A stretch of 37,053 bases of DNA. It comes from Spirochaetaceae bacterium. GTDB taxonomy: Bacteria > Spirochaetota > Spirochaetia > DSM-27196 > SKKC01. The notes below the pieces were generated by a model. The model worked only from the letters and a program-made list of their open reading frames with translations, was not told where the DNA came from and did not search any database. A program made the translations under genes and the position numbers. The stretch spans positions 1-37,053 of the forward strand of contig PWGF01000233.1 of assembly GCA_003554375.1 (NCBI GenBank). The letters run 5' to 3'. Shown one piece after another: positions 5,517-12,909 of the stretch (position 1 is its first letter; each line of letters begins with the position of its first letter).

Positions 5517-6548
5517 TCACATGAGCGGGATGCCGTCCTTCCTGCACTCCTCCGCCATGGACTCCGGCCAGACCGATGCTTGGACCTCGCCGATGTGTGC
5601 TTTCCGCAGCAGGAACATGCAGAGACGCGACTGCCCGATGCCACCCCCGATCGTCTGGGGAAACTCACCCGCCAGAAACCGCTTGTGCCAGTAGAGCTCC
5701 TGCCGCTCCTGATTCTCCGTCAGAGCGAGCTGCCTGAGCAGCGCCTCACGATCCACTCGAATTCCCATAGACGATAGCTCCAGGGCTTTGTCGCGTACGG
5801 AGTCCCAGACGATGATGTCACCGTTCAGGCCGAAGCGACCGGGAGCTGTTTTCGTGGACCAGTCGTCGTAGTCCGGCGCGCGACGGCCATGAGGTTGCCC
5901 GTCGGAGAGCGCCCCACCGATGCCAACGACGAAAACGGCTCCATACTCTTGCGCAAGGCGGTCTTCGCGCTCTTCCGGGGTGAGCTCCGGATATCGTGTC
6001 CGAGCCTCTTCTGCATGGATTATTGCGATGCTTTCGGAGAGGCGGAGCGGGATGTCGGGATACTGTTCGTGGACGGCAAACTCGGTCCGCTTGACGGCGT
6101 TGTATATTCGCCGCACGATCTCGTACAGGAACGACTCGTTGCGCCGTCCTGATTGCATGACGAGCTCCCAGTCCCACTGGTCCACGTAGATCGAGTGCGT
6201 GGCATCGATGACGTCGTCCGGCCGAATTGCGTTCATGTCCGTGTATATTCCGGTTCCCGTCTCGTAACCGTAGTCGGCGAGCGCCATTCTCTTCCACTTG
6301 GCGAGCGATTGGACAATCTCCATTTCCGCTTCTTCGAGGTGGGCGACCGGAAACCTCACCGGCCGCTCGACGCCGGTCAAATCGTCGTTAATGCCGCTTC
6401 CCCGCCGCACAAATAGCGGCGATGTGGCTCGGAAGAGCCTGAGCTCGGTCGACAGCGTTCGCTCGAAAAAGGTCTTGATCTGCTTGATCGCGGTCTCGGT
6501 TTGCTTGATATCCAGAATAGGCCGATACGGCTTCGGTACAATCGACAT
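5517..6548 (-). CDS. asnA: Aspartate--ammonia ligase
   Basis: 343 aa; LFRATSPLFVRRGSGINDDLTGVERPV and GRFGLNGDIIVWDSV, QTIGGGIGQSRLCMFLL motifs of AsnA. Confidence 0.93.
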   Translation of the reverse strand: MSIVPKPYRPILDIKQTETAIKQIKTFFERTLSTELRLFRATSPLFVRRGSGINDDLTGVERPVRFPVAHLEEAEMEIVQSLAKWKRMALADYGYETGTGIYTDMNAIRPDDVIDATHSIYVDQWDWELVMQSGRRNESFLYEIVRRIYNAVKRTEFAVHEQYPDIPLRLSESIAIIHAEEARTRYPELTPEEREDRLAQEYGAVFVVGIGGALSDGQPHGRRAPDYDDWSTKTAPGRFGLNGDIIVWDSVRDKALELSSMGIRVDREALLRQLALTENQERQELYWHKRFLAGEFPQTIGGGIGQSRLCMFLLRKAHIGEVQASVWPESMAEECRKDGIPLM

Positions 6549-6590: not shown

Positions 6591-8411
6591 TCACGGTACG
6601 AGCGCGCCGGCCTGTGCAATGACTCCGCCCAGGAGAAATGCCGTGAGAACCGTCAGGACAAGTAACGCGATCGCAGCGCGCAGGCCGAGCTCTCTGGCCA
6701 AAGTGGCTACCACGGCAATGCACGGCACGTAGAAAAGTCCGACTGTGGCGCCCACGAAAGTCTGAAGCGTCGTGATCTCCATGTCCAGGAGCGGAAGCAC
6801 GGTGAGCTCCCGCCGCACGACGCCGAGTAGCAGCGGCGTCGCAGCCTCCTCCGGGAGACGAAGCCAGCCGGTCACGATGGGTGAGAGAAGCGCGCCGACC
6901 CGAGTCAGGATTCGGGTTTCGTAGAGGACCGCCGCGACGCCGACAGCCGCGACCATCGGGAGGGCACCGTCGACGAGGAAGTGCCGGACTCTTGCCAGAA
7001 GCTTCCGGCCCAGAACGCGCGGCTGTGGCACCAGGAGCTCCGGGATCTCCAGGATGAGTTCCGAGCGGCGGCCGGGAAGGAGTGCGTCCATCGCGAGACC
7101 TGCGACGGCGATGACGGCGAAGGAGAGACCGAAGAGCGCGACGACAAGCAGTATGCTCCGCTCGGCAAGCAGCGCAAAGATAGCGCCGGTTTGGGCAATG
7201 CATGGGACGGCAAGCGATATGAGGGTCGCCACGATGGCGCGTTCTCTGCCGGATCCCATGGCGCGCGTCGAGAGAATGCCCGGAATCGCGCATCCGTACC
7301 CAAGCAGGAGCGAGATGACATGTGACCCCCGCAATCCGATCTTACCCAGAAGCCCGTCGAGGAGAATTGCCAGTCGCGGAAGGTATCCGGAGTCCTCGAG
7401 GAGAGCCAGCACGAAGTAGAAGGAGAGTACGTATGGCAGCACCAGGGTAAACGGCCACTCGATGCCTTTGATGAGGAAGCCGTACTCGCCGATGAGAACG
7501 TCACGGGCAATCCCGGCCGGGACGAGTGACGCGACCCCTTCGCTCAAGGCCGGGAAGAGGTATCCTCGAGCTATAGGGAGGAGGAATGCCTGTCGAACCC
7601 CCATCCCGATGCCCACGATTGCCCCGAAGCTCACCGCAAGCACCCCGAAGGCAATCAGGAGTCCCGGCCACGGGTGCACCAGGGCGTCGCTCTGCGCTGG
7701 GTAGGATGCGGTCCGATCCCGCGGGTGGCCCGCCGGAGGCGCAGGTGCGGCCGGATTCCGCCCTTCGAGGTCCTGGATCTCCTCGAAGTGATCGGGGCAG
7801 TTGGAGCGCTCGGAGACGCATTCCTGTGCGATCTCTTCCGCGTGACGCCAGTAATCGCCTGTGAACGGTTCGGGGACTCTCGGGTGACTCAAAGTATCGG
7901 CAGCCGCAGCCTCCAATCGGTCCAAGCCCCACCCCGTGGGAGCGGCAGTGGGGATCACCGGTACGCCGAGGCGCTTCGCCAGAGTCTCCGAATCGATGTG
8001 TTTCCCCTTAGCGCCGGCAATGTCGCTTCGGTTGAGCGCGACCACCGTAGGCTGCCCCGCGGGAAGAATTTCGAGAATGAGGTGTATGCTACTATCCAGG
8101 TTGACCGCGTCGGCAACGATGAGAACGAGGTCGGCCGGCTCGCGGAGCATGGTGGTGGTGACTCGCTCGGCCTCGTTTGTTGCCGAAAGCGAATACGACC
8201 CGGGTAGGTCGATCAGGGATATCCGGTGGTCGCCGAGCCTGCCCGTGCCCTGAGCAACGTCCACCGTGGTCCCCGGGTAGTTCGCCACCAAGGTCCCGAG
8301 TCCGGTGAGCCGGTTAAAAATGACGCTCTTGCCGACGTTCGGCGGTCCGGCAAGAAGCACGCGGCGCGTGCCTCTGCAATGGGCTGTTCGAGAAGCTTTG
8401 TGGCATCTCAT
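6591..8411 (-). CDS. feoB: Ferrous iron transport protein B (short, divergent permease core)
   Basis: 606 aa; G1 GPPNVGKS, VANYPGTTVDVAQG, G3 DLPGSYSL, G4 NRSD; Gate-type repeats around GYGCAIPGILSTRAM and multiple TM helices. Start lies 3 nt after the stop of the upstream FeoA-fusion ORF. Confidence 0.88.
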   Translation of the reverse strand: MRCHKASRTAHCRGTRRVLLAGPPNVGKSVIFNRLTGLGTLVANYPGTTVDVAQGTGRLGDHRISLIDLPGSYSLSATNEAERVTTTMLREPADLVLIVADAVNLDSSIHLILEILPAGQPTVVALNRSDIAGAKGKHIDSETLAKRLGVPVIPTAAPTGWGLDRLEAAAADTLSHPRVPEPFTGDYWRHAEEIAQECVSERSNCPDHFEEIQDLEGRNPAAPAPPAGHPRDRTASYPAQSDALVHPWPGLLIAFGVLAVSFGAIVGIGMGVRQAFLLPIARGYLFPALSEGVASLVPAGIARDVLIGEYGFLIKGIEWPFTLVLPYVLSFYFVLALLEDSGYLPRLAILLDGLLGKIGLRGSHVISLLLGYGCAIPGILSTRAMGSGRERAIVATLISLAVPCIAQTGAIFALLAERSILLVVALFGLSFAVIAVAGLAMDALLPGRRSELILEIPELLVPQPRVLGRKLLARVRHFLVDGALPMVAAVGVAAVLYETRILTRVGALLSPIVTGWLRLPEEAATPLLLGVVRRELTVLPLLDMEITTLQTFVGATVGLFYVPCIAVVATLARELGLRAAIALLVLTVLTAFLLGGVIAQAGALVP

Positions 8412-8414
8412 GCG

Positions 8415-10193
8415 CTAGCTCTCGGCGGGCGTGACCCGGATTGCCGCGGCTACGGAACGCTGAAGAGCAACCTGACGCTCACCTACGGAGCACACGATCG
8501 GACCGCCCCATGGCTGCGCGGCTACGACCGTACACGGTTTTCCCGGCCGGAACCCAAGGGCTGCAAGCTGCGGGAGGTCAGGAGCATCTGCGATGGTTCC
8601 GCGTTGTTTTGGAGCAAGGTCGCAGAGGGCGCAGGCGAGCCCCCCTTCGCCGGCGCGGGGGCAGGGCTCGGAGGGCGGAGAGGCTTTGCGGCCTGCCCCG
8701 TCTGCATGCGCCGGTACTTCCGGGTTGCCTGAGTGCCGGCTGCCGGGGCGGGCCGGATTCAGCGAGCGAGCACCGTCTTTTGTTACCATCACGAGCTCCT
8801 TTCCTGCCGGCAGTTTCCGGCTCCTGCCGGGATCGAGAATCCCGAGATTGGCGGGTGTTAACCGCTCGTAGACACGCGACAACTCCCCTCTTGGGTTCCG
8901 ATACAGTATACGTGTTCCGGGTTCCGCTGCCGCCACGATGTGACGAAGCACTGCCGCCTTTGGAACGACGTGGAGCGCAACTATCACCGCAGCGAATCCG
9001 ACGCACGGGAAGCGCAGGGCATCACGGCAGATTATCCGCACGACCCCGCGTACGGAACGCCTCCGAACGACCTTGCGGGCTCGCCGGGCAGCGGCGCGAT
9101 CTCGTTCGAGGACGGTAACATAGCATCCTCCTGCGGCAAGCGCAATCGCAGTCGCAGGAAACGGGCCTCCCCCGACCATCAACACGTGATCTCCCGGCCG
9201 GACCCGCGCGGCGGATCGTTCCCGGTCGATCAGCGTCGCGTATGCCGTGCGGGCATAGAGCGCCCCCATCCACGGAATAGCCGCAGCCAAATGTTCCAGA
9301 GCGCCAACTCCGCGACAGACAAGGCGAGGTAGACGGGTTCGTTCAAAGCGGAAGTACCCCATTAGTGAACGTCCAACATGCCTCGTGGGCGTGTAAGCTC
9401 TGAGCGCAGGCGCGTGCCCGGATCTGTTGCGCTTTGCGGAGCCGACGTAAGCGTCGGCATTAAGGCCGGAGCTCGGGGTAAAACCGGCCCGACTCCCCGC
9501 AGCCTGAGATCGGCGGGCCTGAGATCGGCGGGCGTGACTATGGTGGGTCTGAGAATGGTCGGTCCGCCGAGAATGATTGGCCTGCTCGGTCGCGGTCGTA
9601 CCGGCCAGATGCAGCTCCGAGCGGTCGAACGTCGGCATCAGGTGGCGAACCGAGCGGCAGGGCGTATTGCGCTCCTCGAAGCGGCCGTACTCAGCTTCCA
9701 GGCTCCGCCGCGGCAGGCGAAACACCATTCGCCCTCCGACCCCATCGGCACCGTCCCCATCGGCATGCCCGGCCTGGACGCCCTTTACGAGAGAACGAGC
9801 TACGTTTCGTCGGATTGCGTCTTTCGGCTTTGCCTGGAGTGCAATCAGGGCGGCGTCCGCTGTAGGGAGATCGTCGGCTGCCGCATCCGCGCGTATTACC
9901 GTGAGCTGGTCCTGGAGCCCAAGGCGAATGATCAGCTCCCGCGCGTGTGTAACCGCTTCCGGATCCCGATCGATTGCAACCACCTGCACGCGAGCCATCT
10001 GTGCGCAGAGAATGGCGCTGAAGGGTACGGAGCCGCACCCCACGTTCAGGAGCCTGGTTCCGGGAACAAGCGCGAGGAGCCGGAGCTCCCGCCTGACGAG
10101 ACGCCGGTACGGCGCCGCGTAGAGCGCAAAGCCATACCGGCTTGTAGCAATTCGACGTTCCATTCTGCCAACCGCGTTGCAGATCACACCCAT
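8415..10193 (-). CDS. Tandem nicotianamine-synthase-like SAM-dependent transferase domains fused to a C-terminal FeoA domain
   Basis: Internal ATG at 10193 with upstream AGAAAGGA Shine-Dalgarno (592 aa; the N-terminal part of the annotated 794-aa ORF is probably non-coding). Domain 1: LLNVGCGSVPFSAIL...VVAIDRDPEA. Domain 2: LMVGGGPFPATAIALAAGG...VTVLERDRAAA...FAAVIVALHVVPKAAVLRHIVAAAEPGTRILYR. FeoA: LCDLAPKQRGTIADAPDLPQLAALGFRPGKPCTVVAAQPWGGPIVCSVGERQVALQRSVAAAIRV. Confidence 0.75.
   Translation of the reverse strand: MGVICNAVGRMERRIATSRYGFALYAAPYRRLVRRELRLLALVPGTRLLNVGCGSVPFSAILCAQMARVQVVAIDRDPEAVTHARELIIRLGLQDQLTVIRADAAADDLPTADAALIALQAKPKDAIRRNVARSLVKGVQAGHADGDGADGVGGRMVFRLPRRSLEAEYGRFEERNTPCRSVRHLMPTFDRSELHLAGTTATEQANHSRRTDHSQTHHSHARRSQARRSQAAGSRAGFTPSSGLNADAYVGSAKRNRSGHAPALRAYTPTRHVGRSLMGYFRFERTRLPRLVCRGVGALEHLAAAIPWMGALYARTAYATLIDRERSAARVRPGDHVLMVGGGPFPATAIALAAGGCYVTVLERDRAAARRARKVVRRRSVRGVVRIICRDALRFPCVGFAAVIVALHVVPKAAVLRHIVAAAEPGTRILYRNPRGELSRVYERLTPANLGILDPGRSRKLPAGKELVMVTKDGARSLNPARPGSRHSGNPEVPAHADGAGRKASPPSEPCPRAGEGGLACALCDLAPKQRGTIADAPDLPQLAALGFRPGKPCTVVAAQPWGGPIVCSVGERQVALQRSVAAAIRVTPAES
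9502..9561. repeat. 4 x 15-bp tandem repeat within the linker of the NAS-like/FeoA protein
   Basis: GCCTGAGATCGGCGG x2 perfect, then GCGTGACTATGGTGG and GTCTGAGAATGGTCG; encodes His/Ser/Arg-rich DHSQTHHSHARRSQARRSQ. Confidence 0.8.
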
Positions 10194-10720
10194 CCAATCG
10201 TCCTTTCTCGTTCGTTGTAGCTCTTCCGGCTCGGCCCTTCGGGCGAGCGGCCTGTCCCGTCGGGCGAGCGGCCCGGCCCTTCGGACGCGAGGCGGCGCGG
10301 GAGCAGGATCGAAGCATGCGAAACGGCCGCGCGTGCCGGCACAGGACAGTTGCCCGGCGAACCTCTGCGGGCTCGATTCCGCCCTCTCGGCAAGCCGTCT
10401 GCGCTGCAGTACTCCGCAAGCGGGCAAGAGCGACTTGCAGGGCACTTCTCGCCTGCGACCTCCTTGTTTGCCGGAGCGCCAATCTTTGCCGGGGCGCCAA
10501 CGCTCGTACATTGAGGAGAGTCGAGAAGCCGTAGACCCGCAGGCCCGTGATGGAGAAACGCGAACGCAGCCGCCGCAGCCTTCCAGAATGCGTAGACGAG
10601 CGCGCCGGCAACGCGCGCGCATCCCCATACCACGCGGAGACCTCGCCGAGTGTGTTGTGCGCTCGGCGTCACGGAAGCCGAGATTGCGCTGGGACGCTGG
10701 GCAAGGCCCGCGAAACTCAC
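10184..10720 (-). CDS. Small putative membrane protein with Cys-containing tail, first gene of the feo locus
   Basis: GTG at 10720 preceded by GAAGGAGAAA; one hydrophobic segment (VVWGCARVAGALVYAFWKAAAAAFAFLHHG), then KCPASRSCPLAEYC. Its stop overlaps the ATG of the downstream gene (10193). No family recognised; coding status inferred. Confidence 0.45.
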   Translation of the reverse strand: MSFAGLAQRPSAISASVTPSAQHTRRGLRVVWGCARVAGALVYAFWKAAAAAFAFLHHGPAGLRLLDSPQCTSVGAPAKIGAPANKEVAGEKCPASRSCPLAEYCSADGLPRGRNRARRGSPGNCPVPARAAVSHASILLPRRLASEGPGRSPDGTGRSPEGPSRKSYNERERTIGWV

Positions 10721-10802
10721 CGCTTTCTCCTTCTCGAGTAACCCAAGTGGCACCGAGACCCCTCGAAAGCCGGCGTTCCCGAGGAGTTTCGTGGAGCACA
10801 CT

Positions 10803-10822
10803 AGGTTGGTCCCGCCCAACTT
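10803..10822 (-). promoter_or_regulatory. Inverted repeat at predicted feo transcription start (possible metalloregulator operator)
   Basis: AGGTTGGtcccgcCCAACTT: perfect GTTGG/CCAAC arms; the left half TAGGTTGG resembles the IdeR/DtxR half-site TTAGGTTAG. Confidence 0.4.
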
Positions 10823-10849
10823 TCTACTATATGGCGCATGGATTGTCAA
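10821..10849 (-). promoter_or_regulatory. Putative promoter of the feo locus
   Basis: Minus strand TTGACA (10849-10844), 17-nt spacer, TAGAAA (10826-10821). Confidence 0.55.
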
Positions 10850-11075
10850 TGATGATCTGTTGAGAACGATAAGTCAGTGTCCTTCCATTAAATAGCTCGA
10901 ATGGTATTGATAGAAGGCGATACTCAAACGACAATAGCGTTCTCTTCACTCCAAGGCATTCTTTGCGTTCAACGCGCTTGTTCGTCCCCCTCTTTAGCGA
11001 GCTTCGAACTTACGATACCATGCGGGGCGCTCCGAAGCACGCGTAGATTCCGAGGTGGTAGAGAGGCGGAGGCTC

Positions 11076-11822
11076 ATGGCGGAGACAATGGGTACAAAAG
11101 CAGCCTTGCCCGGCAGCAGAGGCCGGGTGGTCATTGATACCAGCATATTCGTGAATCCGGACTCGATGAAATACTTCGGCGAAGGCGTAGGCCCCGCCGT
11201 GGAACGGTTCCTCGAGATCTGCCGCGAGCTCGGGCTCGAGATATACGTACCGCTCTCGGTGTTTCGAGAGCTTGCGAGCTTCCTCCCGCCATATACGCTC
11301 AAAACACTGCGCAGCCGTGCCGTGGTACGTGAGCCGGACCTCTACCATACGCATGTTCCCGCGGTGACGTTTCACACCTTCGTGCGGGAGCTGCGCCACC
11401 GCGTGAACAAAGGGCTTCAGATCGCCGAGCAGGCAATTAAGAGCGCCAACAATCCGGAGAATATCCGGTGGGTCAGACAGCACTATCGTGAGGCGCTGCG
11501 GACCGGAATCGTGGACAGCGTGGAGGATCTGGAAGTCGTGCTGCTGGCGCGCGAGGTGGACGGGATCGTCCTTACTGCGGATCAGGGGATTGCGTCGATG
11601 GCGGGCTGTTTTGGGATCGAGGTTTTTGCCGCGGAGGAATTCCTCGACTATTCCGAAGACAGCCGGACGCAGCATGGCGGGCGCGTTGATGGCGGTTCCT
11701 CAGAGGACGGCGGTTCCTCAGAGGACGGGGGTGCCTCAGAGGGTGCCTGCGCCCCAGAGGACCGTGGCACCTTAGGGGGTGACGGCACCTTAGAAAGTGA
11801 CAGCGCGTCAGAGGATGAGTGA
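11076..11822 (+). CDS. RNA ligase partner protein, PIN domain (UPF0278 / MJ_0548-like family)
   Basis: VVIDTSIFVNPDSMKYFGEGVGPAVERFLE and VDGIVLTADQGIASMAGCFGIEV; adjacent to an RNA ligase. ATG 11076 has GGCGGAGG upstream (ORF track start is GTG 11055). Confidence 0.85.
   Translation: MAETMGTKAALPGSRGRVVIDTSIFVNPDSMKYFGEGVGPAVERFLEICRELGLEIYVPLSVFRELASFLPPYTLKTLRSRAVVREPDLYHTHVPAVTFHTFVRELRHRVNKGLQIAEQAIKSANNPENIRWVRQHYREALRTGIVDSVEDLEVVLLAREVDGIVLTADQGIASMAGCFGIEVFAAEEFLDYSEDSRTQHGGRVDGGSSEDGGSSEDGGASEGACAPEDRGTLGGDGTLESDSASEDE
11694..11819 (+). repeat. 7 x 18-bp imperfect tandem repeat at the 3' end of the PIN-partner gene
   Basis: Units begin at 11694, 11712, 11730, 11748, 11766, 11784, 11802; encodes GSSEDG GSSEDG GASEGA CAPEDR GTLGGD GTLESD SASEDE, directly followed by TGA. 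Confidence 0.9.
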
Positions 11823-12909
11823 GATGGAGCACGATCGAGATCGCGACTTCGAGCAGTTCACATTCCAGGGGAAAGCGTATCGCCGGTACAAGAAGGACCG
11901 GGAATCGCCTCGGGGGACAATCGAGATCCTGGACCAGGAAGGAGCCGGAGAGCGCAGTATTCCGGGATTCCCCTCCATCAGGCGGGTATACCGTCTGAAG
12001 CAGGGAATCCGCCGCCTTTTCGGGAATAGCCCGTTTCATGCCGAAGAGAAGCTGGACGGGTACAATGTGCGGATATTCCTGCACGACGGGCGTCTTCCGG
12101 CAGCCTCGCGGGGCGGCTTCCTCTGCCCGTTCACCACGGAGTGGGCGGAAATCTGGGGCGAGGACTGTAATCTTCACCGGTTCTTCCGTGACTATCCGGA
12201 TCACGTACTGTGTGGCGAGGTTGTGGGCGATAACCCCTACAACCGGCAGCGGGATCCGGAGCTCTCCGCCGGGGCGCATTTCTTCGTCTTCGAGATTGCC
12301 GCCCCCGACGGACAGTTCCTTCGTCCCGCCGATCGCTACCGTCTCGTGGAGGAGTACGATCTTCCTGCGGTGCCGAACCTCGGCGAGTTCCACGTCCGCC
12401 GTATCGATGCGCTCTACGAGCTGCTCCGGGATCTGAACGAGCGCGGGCGGGAGGGTGTGGTGCTCAAAGATCGCCGTGGGAAACGTCGCCTGAAGTTCGT
12501 CACCCCGACGAGCGACTTGCAGGATATCCGGGATGCTCTGGCGATCGGCTTCGATATGGCGAGCGGATACTTCTTCAACAGATATATGCGTGCGGTCATA
12601 TTCGTTCGCGAGCTGGGGTTGGACGAGGCGGAGTACGCACGCCACATCGGTCAGGCTTTCCTCGACGGTGTCCCGGGTTCCCACGAGTTCTCCGAAGCAA
12701 GCGAGCAGTATCGCATCTACGTGCGTGAGAGGCGCACCTGGGAGGCCCTGTACGAGAGACTTCAGTCGCACGTTCTTCTCAAGGAGGACAACGTCGTACC
12801 GGGCAGTGCTTTCGGACGCGACATGCTTCGGGTTGACTTCCGGCGCGTCTTCCAGCGCAGCTCACACCGTTACCGGCTCATGCTCGGCGGATACCTTCAT
12901 GCCGATTGA
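11815..12909 (+). CDS. ATP-dependent RNA ligase, archaeal Pab1020/Rnl3-like family
   Basis: Motif I EKLDGYNVR, motif III-like FFVFEIA, motif IV EGVVLKD, motif V RRLKFVTP; ATG at 11815 overlaps the upstream stop (11820-11822). Confidence 0.87.
   Translation: MSEMEHDRDRDFEQFTFQGKAYRRYKKDRESPRGTIEILDQEGAGERSIPGFPSIRRVYRLKQGIRRLFGNSPFHAEEKLDGYNVRIFLHDGRLPAASRGGFLCPFTTEWAEIWGEDCNLHRFFRDYPDHVLCGEVVGDNPYNRQRDPELSAGAHFFVFEIAAPDGQFLRPADRYRLVEEYDLPAVPNLGEFHVRRIDALYELLRDLNERGREGVVLKDRRGKRRLKFVTPTSDLQDIRDALAIGFDMASGYFFNRYMRAVIFVRELGLDEAEYARHIGQAFLDGVPGSHEFSEASEQYRIYVRERRTWEALYERLQSHVLLKEDNVVPGSAFGRDMLRVDFRRVFQRSSHRYRLMLGGYLHAD

Follow-up and report, generated by a model that had tools for sequence, protein, structure and literature searches.

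Genes and features at the locus

The window, which is the whole stretch of 37,053 nucleotides analyzed here, contains an iron transport locus with a promoter region, a small cysteine-rich open reading frame (ORF), a long frame that joins two domains resembling nicotianamine synthase (NAS) to FeoA, and feoB. The individual features, all on the minus strand, are as follows.

10844 to 10849, minus strand: -35-like TTGACA of the cassette promoter (in relatives TTGAC, at an equal distance before the palindrome)
10803 to 10821, minus strand: degenerate dyad AGTTGGGCGGGACCAACCT, where relatives carry TTAGGTAAGCCTAA (DtxR/IdeR-type box)
10184 to 10633, minus strand: small Cys-rich ORF with an uncertain start and a stop that overlaps ATG 10193
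8415 to 10193, minus strand: NAS1-linker-NAS2-FeoA open frame, 592 aa, ATG at 10193
9612 to 10193, minus strand: NAS1 domain, residues 1 to 194 (about 1 to 195); Foldseek match MtNAS 3fpe
9363 to 9611, minus strand: linker of 83 codons, residues ~195 to 277, low complexity, flat GC content by codon position
8760 to 9362, minus strand: NAS2 domain, residues 278 to 478 (about 290 to 480); Foldseek match MtNAS 3fpg
8616 to 8633, minus strand: C521ALC524DL, a motif of the CxxC type at the junction to FeoA; many relatives have CxxCxLCDL
8427 to 8627, minus strand: FeoA domain, residues 523 to 589; Pfam PF04023, 52.5 bits
6591 to 8411, minus strand: feoB, 606 aa, cassette-specific clade, N-terminal MxCH

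A preliminary description of this DNA had reported a single open frame from ATG 10193 with two similar SAM domains and a C-terminal FeoA domain, and both statements were borne out by the frame length and the Pfam match. Upstream of this ATG the frame stays open to a GTG at 10799, and homologues align only from ATG 10193. Domains NAS1 and NAS2 share 29% identity over 175 aa (BLASTP, 3e-7), and a profile-profile comparison gave 99.8% with an E value of 5e-30; judged by these alignments, the two SAM domains of the 592-aa frame are paralogues. The feoB gene begins 3 nt past the stop of the frame, and its product matches the Pfam families FeoB_N (152.6 bits), Gate (92 bits), and FeoB_C (28.1 bits), with intact G motifs; the score against TIGR00437 was 312.3, just below the cut-off of 315.65.

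In the aligned upstream DNA of relatives, TTGAC is followed by TTAGGTAAGCCTAA, which lies over the likely -10 element. This palindrome resembles the DtxR/IdeR iron box (TTAGGTTAGGCTAACCTAA). A lone iron box that overlaps a promoter represses uptake genes (PMC9132128). The dyad of the window is weak and scores under the matrix threshold, and we consider it a putative box of the DtxR/IdeR type from the match of its position with that of the relatives. In 18 whole genomes, the pattern TTAGGTNNGCCTAA was found five times, each time in the cassette promoter; because seven occurrences of the reversed control pattern were counted in the 18 genomes, the significance lies in its placement and not in its count. 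Other genomes carry weaker versions of the palindrome at the same place, the matrix scores of which are not independent, because the matrix was trained on them. A DtxR family protein was found in 45 of the 46 genomes of the order.

The small ORF of the window contains FLHHG at 10544 to 10558 and CPASRSCPLAEYC at 10406 to 10444, and the motifs FLHHG and C..CP[ILV]...C recur in nearly all copies of the relatives. An assignment to a FeoB-associated Cys-rich family was rejected, since the four relatives' copies scanned matched no Pfam family. With pN/pS values of 0.25 to 0.68 in relatives, this ORF is the weakest-supported part of the cassette. A riboswitch in the conserved upstream DNA was also dismissed: no Rfam family was detected in 11 relatives, and the window gave tRNAs only. 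The upstream conservation is that of the promoter palindrome and the small ORF.

Conservation of the cassette in a spirochaete order

A conserved cassette, of which the window contains one copy, is present in 18 to 19 genomes of one spirochaete order, distributed over 8 genera and 6 families. A cultured example is the alkaliphile Alkalispirochaeta alkalica, and several isolate names suggest soda lakes. The usual order is a promoter with a DtxR/IdeR-type palindrome, the small Cys-rich ORF, NAS1, often a PF03706 domain, NAS2-FeoA, and FeoB. NAS1 was found in 18 genomes and NAS2-FeoA in 17, with NAS2 and FeoA fused in all 17 (17/17). The comparison of these 17 neighborhoods upheld the earlier proposal that a NAS-like domain is physically connected with FeoA and coupled with FeoB; an assembly join as the origin of the NAS-FeoA fusion is ruled out, because 17 genomes have it. 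The genes that flank the cassette vary between genera, and the cassette is therefore the conserved unit. Values of pN/pS were 0.19 to 0.31 for NAS1, NAS2-FeoA, and the PF03706 membrane domain and 0.06 for FeoB; these cassette genes are under purifying selection.

The PF03706 domain, an MprF-type membrane domain of ~300 aa that scored 94 to 104 bits where scanned, is located between NAS1 and NAS2 in many genomes. It is (i) fused N-terminally to NAS2-FeoA in five cassettes (L031, L032, L033, L035, and L038), (ii) encoded by a gene of its own in L037, L040, L041, and L043, with contig-edge copies in L045, L049, and L050, and (iii) absent in six cassettes, namely, those of the window, L034, L036, L039, L047, and L048. 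In genus g12 (L041 to L044) the cassette is divided between two operons that lie on separate contigs, one with the order palindrome-NAS1-PF03706 and the other with palindrome-small ORF-NAS2-FeoA-feoB. The similar palindromes at both operons make this genus a natural test of co-regulation.

The profile searches used A1 (NAS2-FeoA, 14 sequences) and A2 (NAS1, 17 sequences). The search with A2 in 394 genomes of the phylum produced one weak match outside the order, in G098 (L087), which belongs to another family; this match to the NAS1 profile is partial (43.6 bits, positions 30 to 138) and may represent a distant relative or a generic methyltransferase. An alignment-based scan of genome contigs retrieved nine loci, in A. 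alkalica DSM 8900 and eight spirochaete metagenome assemblies; a single-sequence scan of genome contigs gave no match, nor did tblastn against plasmids.

The FeoB proteins of the cassette form a clade with 48 to 73% identity over the matched part. This clade and NAS1, each present in 18 genomes, co-occur in 17, and the exceptions (G032 and G035) are at contig ends. The remaining genomes of the order contain only more distant FeoB/GTPase matches (E value of 1e-54 or weaker). The nearest FeoBs outside the clade, those of G034 and G026 (~41%), sit behind a plain stand-alone FeoA, and for this reason the NAS domains seem to have been added to a feoAB pair of the ordinary kind. Nearly all copies of the clade start with MxCH (8400 to 8411 in the window; L031 to L048), an extra possible metal ligand at the cytosolic N terminus of FeoB.

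The in-frame join of NAS1 and NAS2 was observed in the genome of the window only. The tandem NAS-NAS-FeoA protein had initially been taken as the native form, but wherever relatives have both domains on one contig, NAS1 and NAS2 are separate genes that usually overlap or are adjacent. At the place of the linker, relatives show either a boundary between genes or the PF03706 domain. Its GC content by codon position is 0.65, 0.66, and 0.63, compared to 0.74, 0.49, and 0.70 for NAS1, and the second-position value is outside the range of equal-size windows in both domains (0.43 to 0.63). Since the join is unique to the window and the linker has no codon bias, the tandem protein may be the result of a one-base indel or of a local event. 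A merger of two adjacent, coupled genes, by an error of one base or by loss of a stop codon, would also agree with a second frame that crosses the linker and ends in a TAATG stop/start exactly where NAS2 begins and with an assembly that is 70% complete and consists of 559 contigs. We give such a non-native origin a little under an even chance, since the 83 codons are free of stops in frame, a disordered linker would give a similar pattern, and neighboring Feo genes are often fused (PMC8749426). This doubt concerns the NAS1-NAS2 join alone and has no effect on the NAS2-FeoA fusion or the cassette.

Relationship of the SAM domains to nicotianamine synthase

Against the Pfam NAS family (PF03059, cut-off 27.1 bits), the tandem protein scored 39.3 bits only as the sum of both domains, which reached 22.1 and 21.0 bits alone; NAS1 of G010 (L034) obtained 32.2 bits. 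On single domains, generic methyltransferase Pfam models scored equal to NAS. Profiles and models were compared as well. (i) When all PDB sequences were searched, the archaeal thermonicotianamine synthase MtNAS ranked first for A1 and A2 (2e-15 and 4e-15), and CntL, an enzyme of staphylopine synthesis, was the second sequence family (1e-9 and 6e-12). (ii) The two AlphaFold models are confident, with pLDDT values of 81.8 and 88.6. The NAS2 model retrieved MtNAS 3fpg first in Foldseek (E value of 7.9e-13), the next family being ~9,000-fold weaker (7.4e-9), and the NAS1 model retrieved MtNAS 3fpe first (8.6e-12), the next family being ~100-fold weaker (9.4e-10); the latter alignment covers 199 columns with a TM score of 0.73 by query length. 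(iii) Tyr29 of NAS1 and Tyr318 of NAS2 align with Tyr107 of MtNAS and are invariant in the 17 NAS1 and 14 NAS2 sequences, respectively. The remaining motifs are GCGxxPF, PK, and R in NAS1 and GxGPxP, LHVxPK, and RN in NAS2. The NAS-likeness noticed at the outset is thus corroborated by MtNAS as the top PDB match of both domains, and the profiles and predicted structures support the view that SAM domains 1 and 2 are both NAS-like rather than members of another methyltransferase family. The suggestion that domain 1 is a degenerate copy did not hold, given a mean column identity of 49% in NAS1 versus 44% in NAS2 and 30 versus 24 invariant columns.

In MtNAS, Tyr107 and Glu81 are the proposed bases (PMC10491745), and the AtNAS1 mutants Y106F and E77Q, altered at the equivalent residues, are inactive (PMC10248798). 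An invariant Glu is found 17 to 18 residues ahead of the Tyr in the cassette proteins (Glu12 in NAS1 and Glu300 in NAS2); this spacing is 17 in CntL, by one HMMER alignment, and 26 in MtNAS. The N-terminal helical domain of NAS is absent from both models, and NAS1 begins ~28 residues before its Tyr. Because of this absence, we refer to the proteins as NAS-like and not as NAS. The preliminary description was silent on this point, as it was on the PF03706 domain, the Cys-rich ORF, and the promoter palindrome.

The equal Pfam scores leave room for a different reading, in which the NAS-like domains serve as methyltransferases or sensors of SAM, FeoB or FeoA is what they modify or regulate, and no small ligand is made. 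With the N-terminal domain lost, a protein substrate would have access to the reaction chamber. FeoA, an SH3-like protein, partners the G domain of FeoB, on which it acts in Bacteroides fragilis (PMC8980893). We nevertheless regard this reading as improbable, since the structure and profile rankings place MtNAS above all methyltransferases and conservation extends to the Tyr, PK, and R positions of the NAS type.

Comparison with known systems reveals the following similarities and differences. (i) With MtNAS (3FPE/3FPG/3O31; PF03059), the cassette enzymes have in common the SAM-binding Rossmann core and the positions of Tyr107, GxGPxP, PK, and R; they differ in the missing N-terminal helical domain, in an apparently shifted equivalent of Glu81, and in the joint use of two paralogues, one of which is fused to FeoA and linked to feoB. 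(ii) CntL, by HMMER alignment, has the Glu-Tyr spacing of NAS1 (17) and is the second-best PDB sequence family, but it has the N-terminal domain that NAS1 and NAS2 lack, and its partner transporter is an ABC importer instead of FeoB. (iii) Known Feo systems (FeoA, FeoB, and FeoAB fusions) share the FeoA domain and the FeoB G and Gate domains, and those with FeoB-associated Cys-rich proteins also resemble the cassette in having a small Cys-rich protein in the operon; here, in contrast, FeoA resides on a NAS-like enzyme, NAS1 and PF03706 are partners, the palindrome is of the DtxR type, and FeoB forms a separate clade. (iv) MprF, an aminoacyl-lipid synthase and flippase, likewise joins PF03706 N-terminally to a cytosolic transferase, as in five cassette genomes, whereas the transferase here is NAS-like and not of the GNAT fold, FeoA is at the C terminus, and there is one membrane unit of ~300 aa, which several cassettes lack.

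A possible ligand for FeoB-dependent iron transport

The role of FeoA and the way in which FeoB gathers Fe(II) and sets it free are long-standing open questions. We propose, at about even chances, that the cassette is a metal-repressed Feo variant in which the two NAS-like enzymes produce a ligand for Fe(II) from SAM at FeoB. The anatomy, conservation, homology, linkage, purifying selection, and dedicated promoter palindrome are observations, and we infer the chemistry, the product, the direction of transport, and the metal specificity. When metal is plentiful, a DtxR/IdeR-type repressor, which we postulate because of the promoter palindrome, would shut the operon off; when metal is scarce, the distinct FeoB would be made together with NAS1 and NAS2. 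FeoA would serve as a tether that places NAS2 beside the FeoB G domain. NAS1 and NAS2, most likely as a pair, would then donate the 3-amino-3-carboxypropyl group of SAM to an amino acceptor and so form an Fe(II) ligand of the nicotianamine kind. This product would capture Fe(II) at FeoB or pass it on there, for which alkaline soda lakes rich in carbonate offer a plausible need. In cassettes that have it, the PF03706 domain may move this ligand through the inner membrane, either free or bound to a lipid. Without the N-terminal domain, the chamber may be built jointly by NAS1 and NAS2, or the acceptor may be large (a lipid or a protein).

Several observations count against a ligand, namely, the missing N-terminal helical domain of NAS and CntL, the uncertain equivalent of Glu81, the six cassettes without PF03706, and the degenerate palindrome of the window; moreover, no FeoB is known to take up metallophore complexes. 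The opine dehydrogenase CntM (PF10100) of the staphylopine pathway was found in none of the 46 genomes of the order, in a search that lacked a positive control. A fuller version, in which all parts form one machine, would consist of a trimmed two-subunit NAS-type enzyme held on FeoB via FeoA, with the chelator moved by the MprF-like domain; it would combine ligand-assisted and G-protein-driven iron uptake, with a SAM-derived chelator that is free or lipid-linked. We consider this version conceivable but rather unlikely.

A lipid acceptor is a serious rival because of the MprF-like layout in five genomes. NAS1 and NAS2 would load aminocarboxypropyl groups on a membrane lipid and PF03706 would flip it, leaving a lipid-anchored ligand for Fe(II) in the outer leaflet, close to FeoB. 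In MprF, a flippase domain is followed by a cytosolic synthase domain (PMC8131360), the arrangement seen where PF03706 precedes NAS2-FeoA, and BtaA uses the aminocarboxypropyl groups of SAM for betaine lipids, although it is described as non-homologous to NAS (PMC10491745). The six cassettes that have no PF03706 also speak against this route, and we judge it quite improbable.

Returning to the soluble or lipid-linked ligand made at FeoB, FeoA is fused to a chelator-synthase-like enzyme, and 8 genera have kept this arrangement. A ligand made by the enzyme would give FeoB a small-molecule partner and bring nicotianamine-type chemistry into both Feo transport and the spirochaetes; the enzyme would then be a two-protein NAS that lacks the N-terminal domain present in the structurally known NAS and CntL. 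An iron-pump operon with chelator-synthase-like enzymes appears to be undescribed so far. The available parts of two Feo surveys (PMC8749426 and PMC8980893) do not mention NAS fusions. In the open-access literature, NAS and FeoA were named together only in work on Pseudomonas siderophores, and nothing joined NAS with spirochaetes, a weak absence because only open-access texts were covered.

The surroundings of the cassette in the window contain further genes. The gene for AsnA (aspartate-ammonia ligase; 5517 to 6548, minus strand) is located 42 nt past feoB on the same strand; it was not seen after feoB in the relatives examined, and genus g9 has a Na/Ca-antiporter-like gene at this place. Divergent from the Feo cassette, a PIN_5 ribonuclease gene (11055 to 11822, plus strand) overlaps that of a Pab1020-type RNA ligase (11797 to 12909, plus strand), and the two products are a possible RNA cut-and-join pair.
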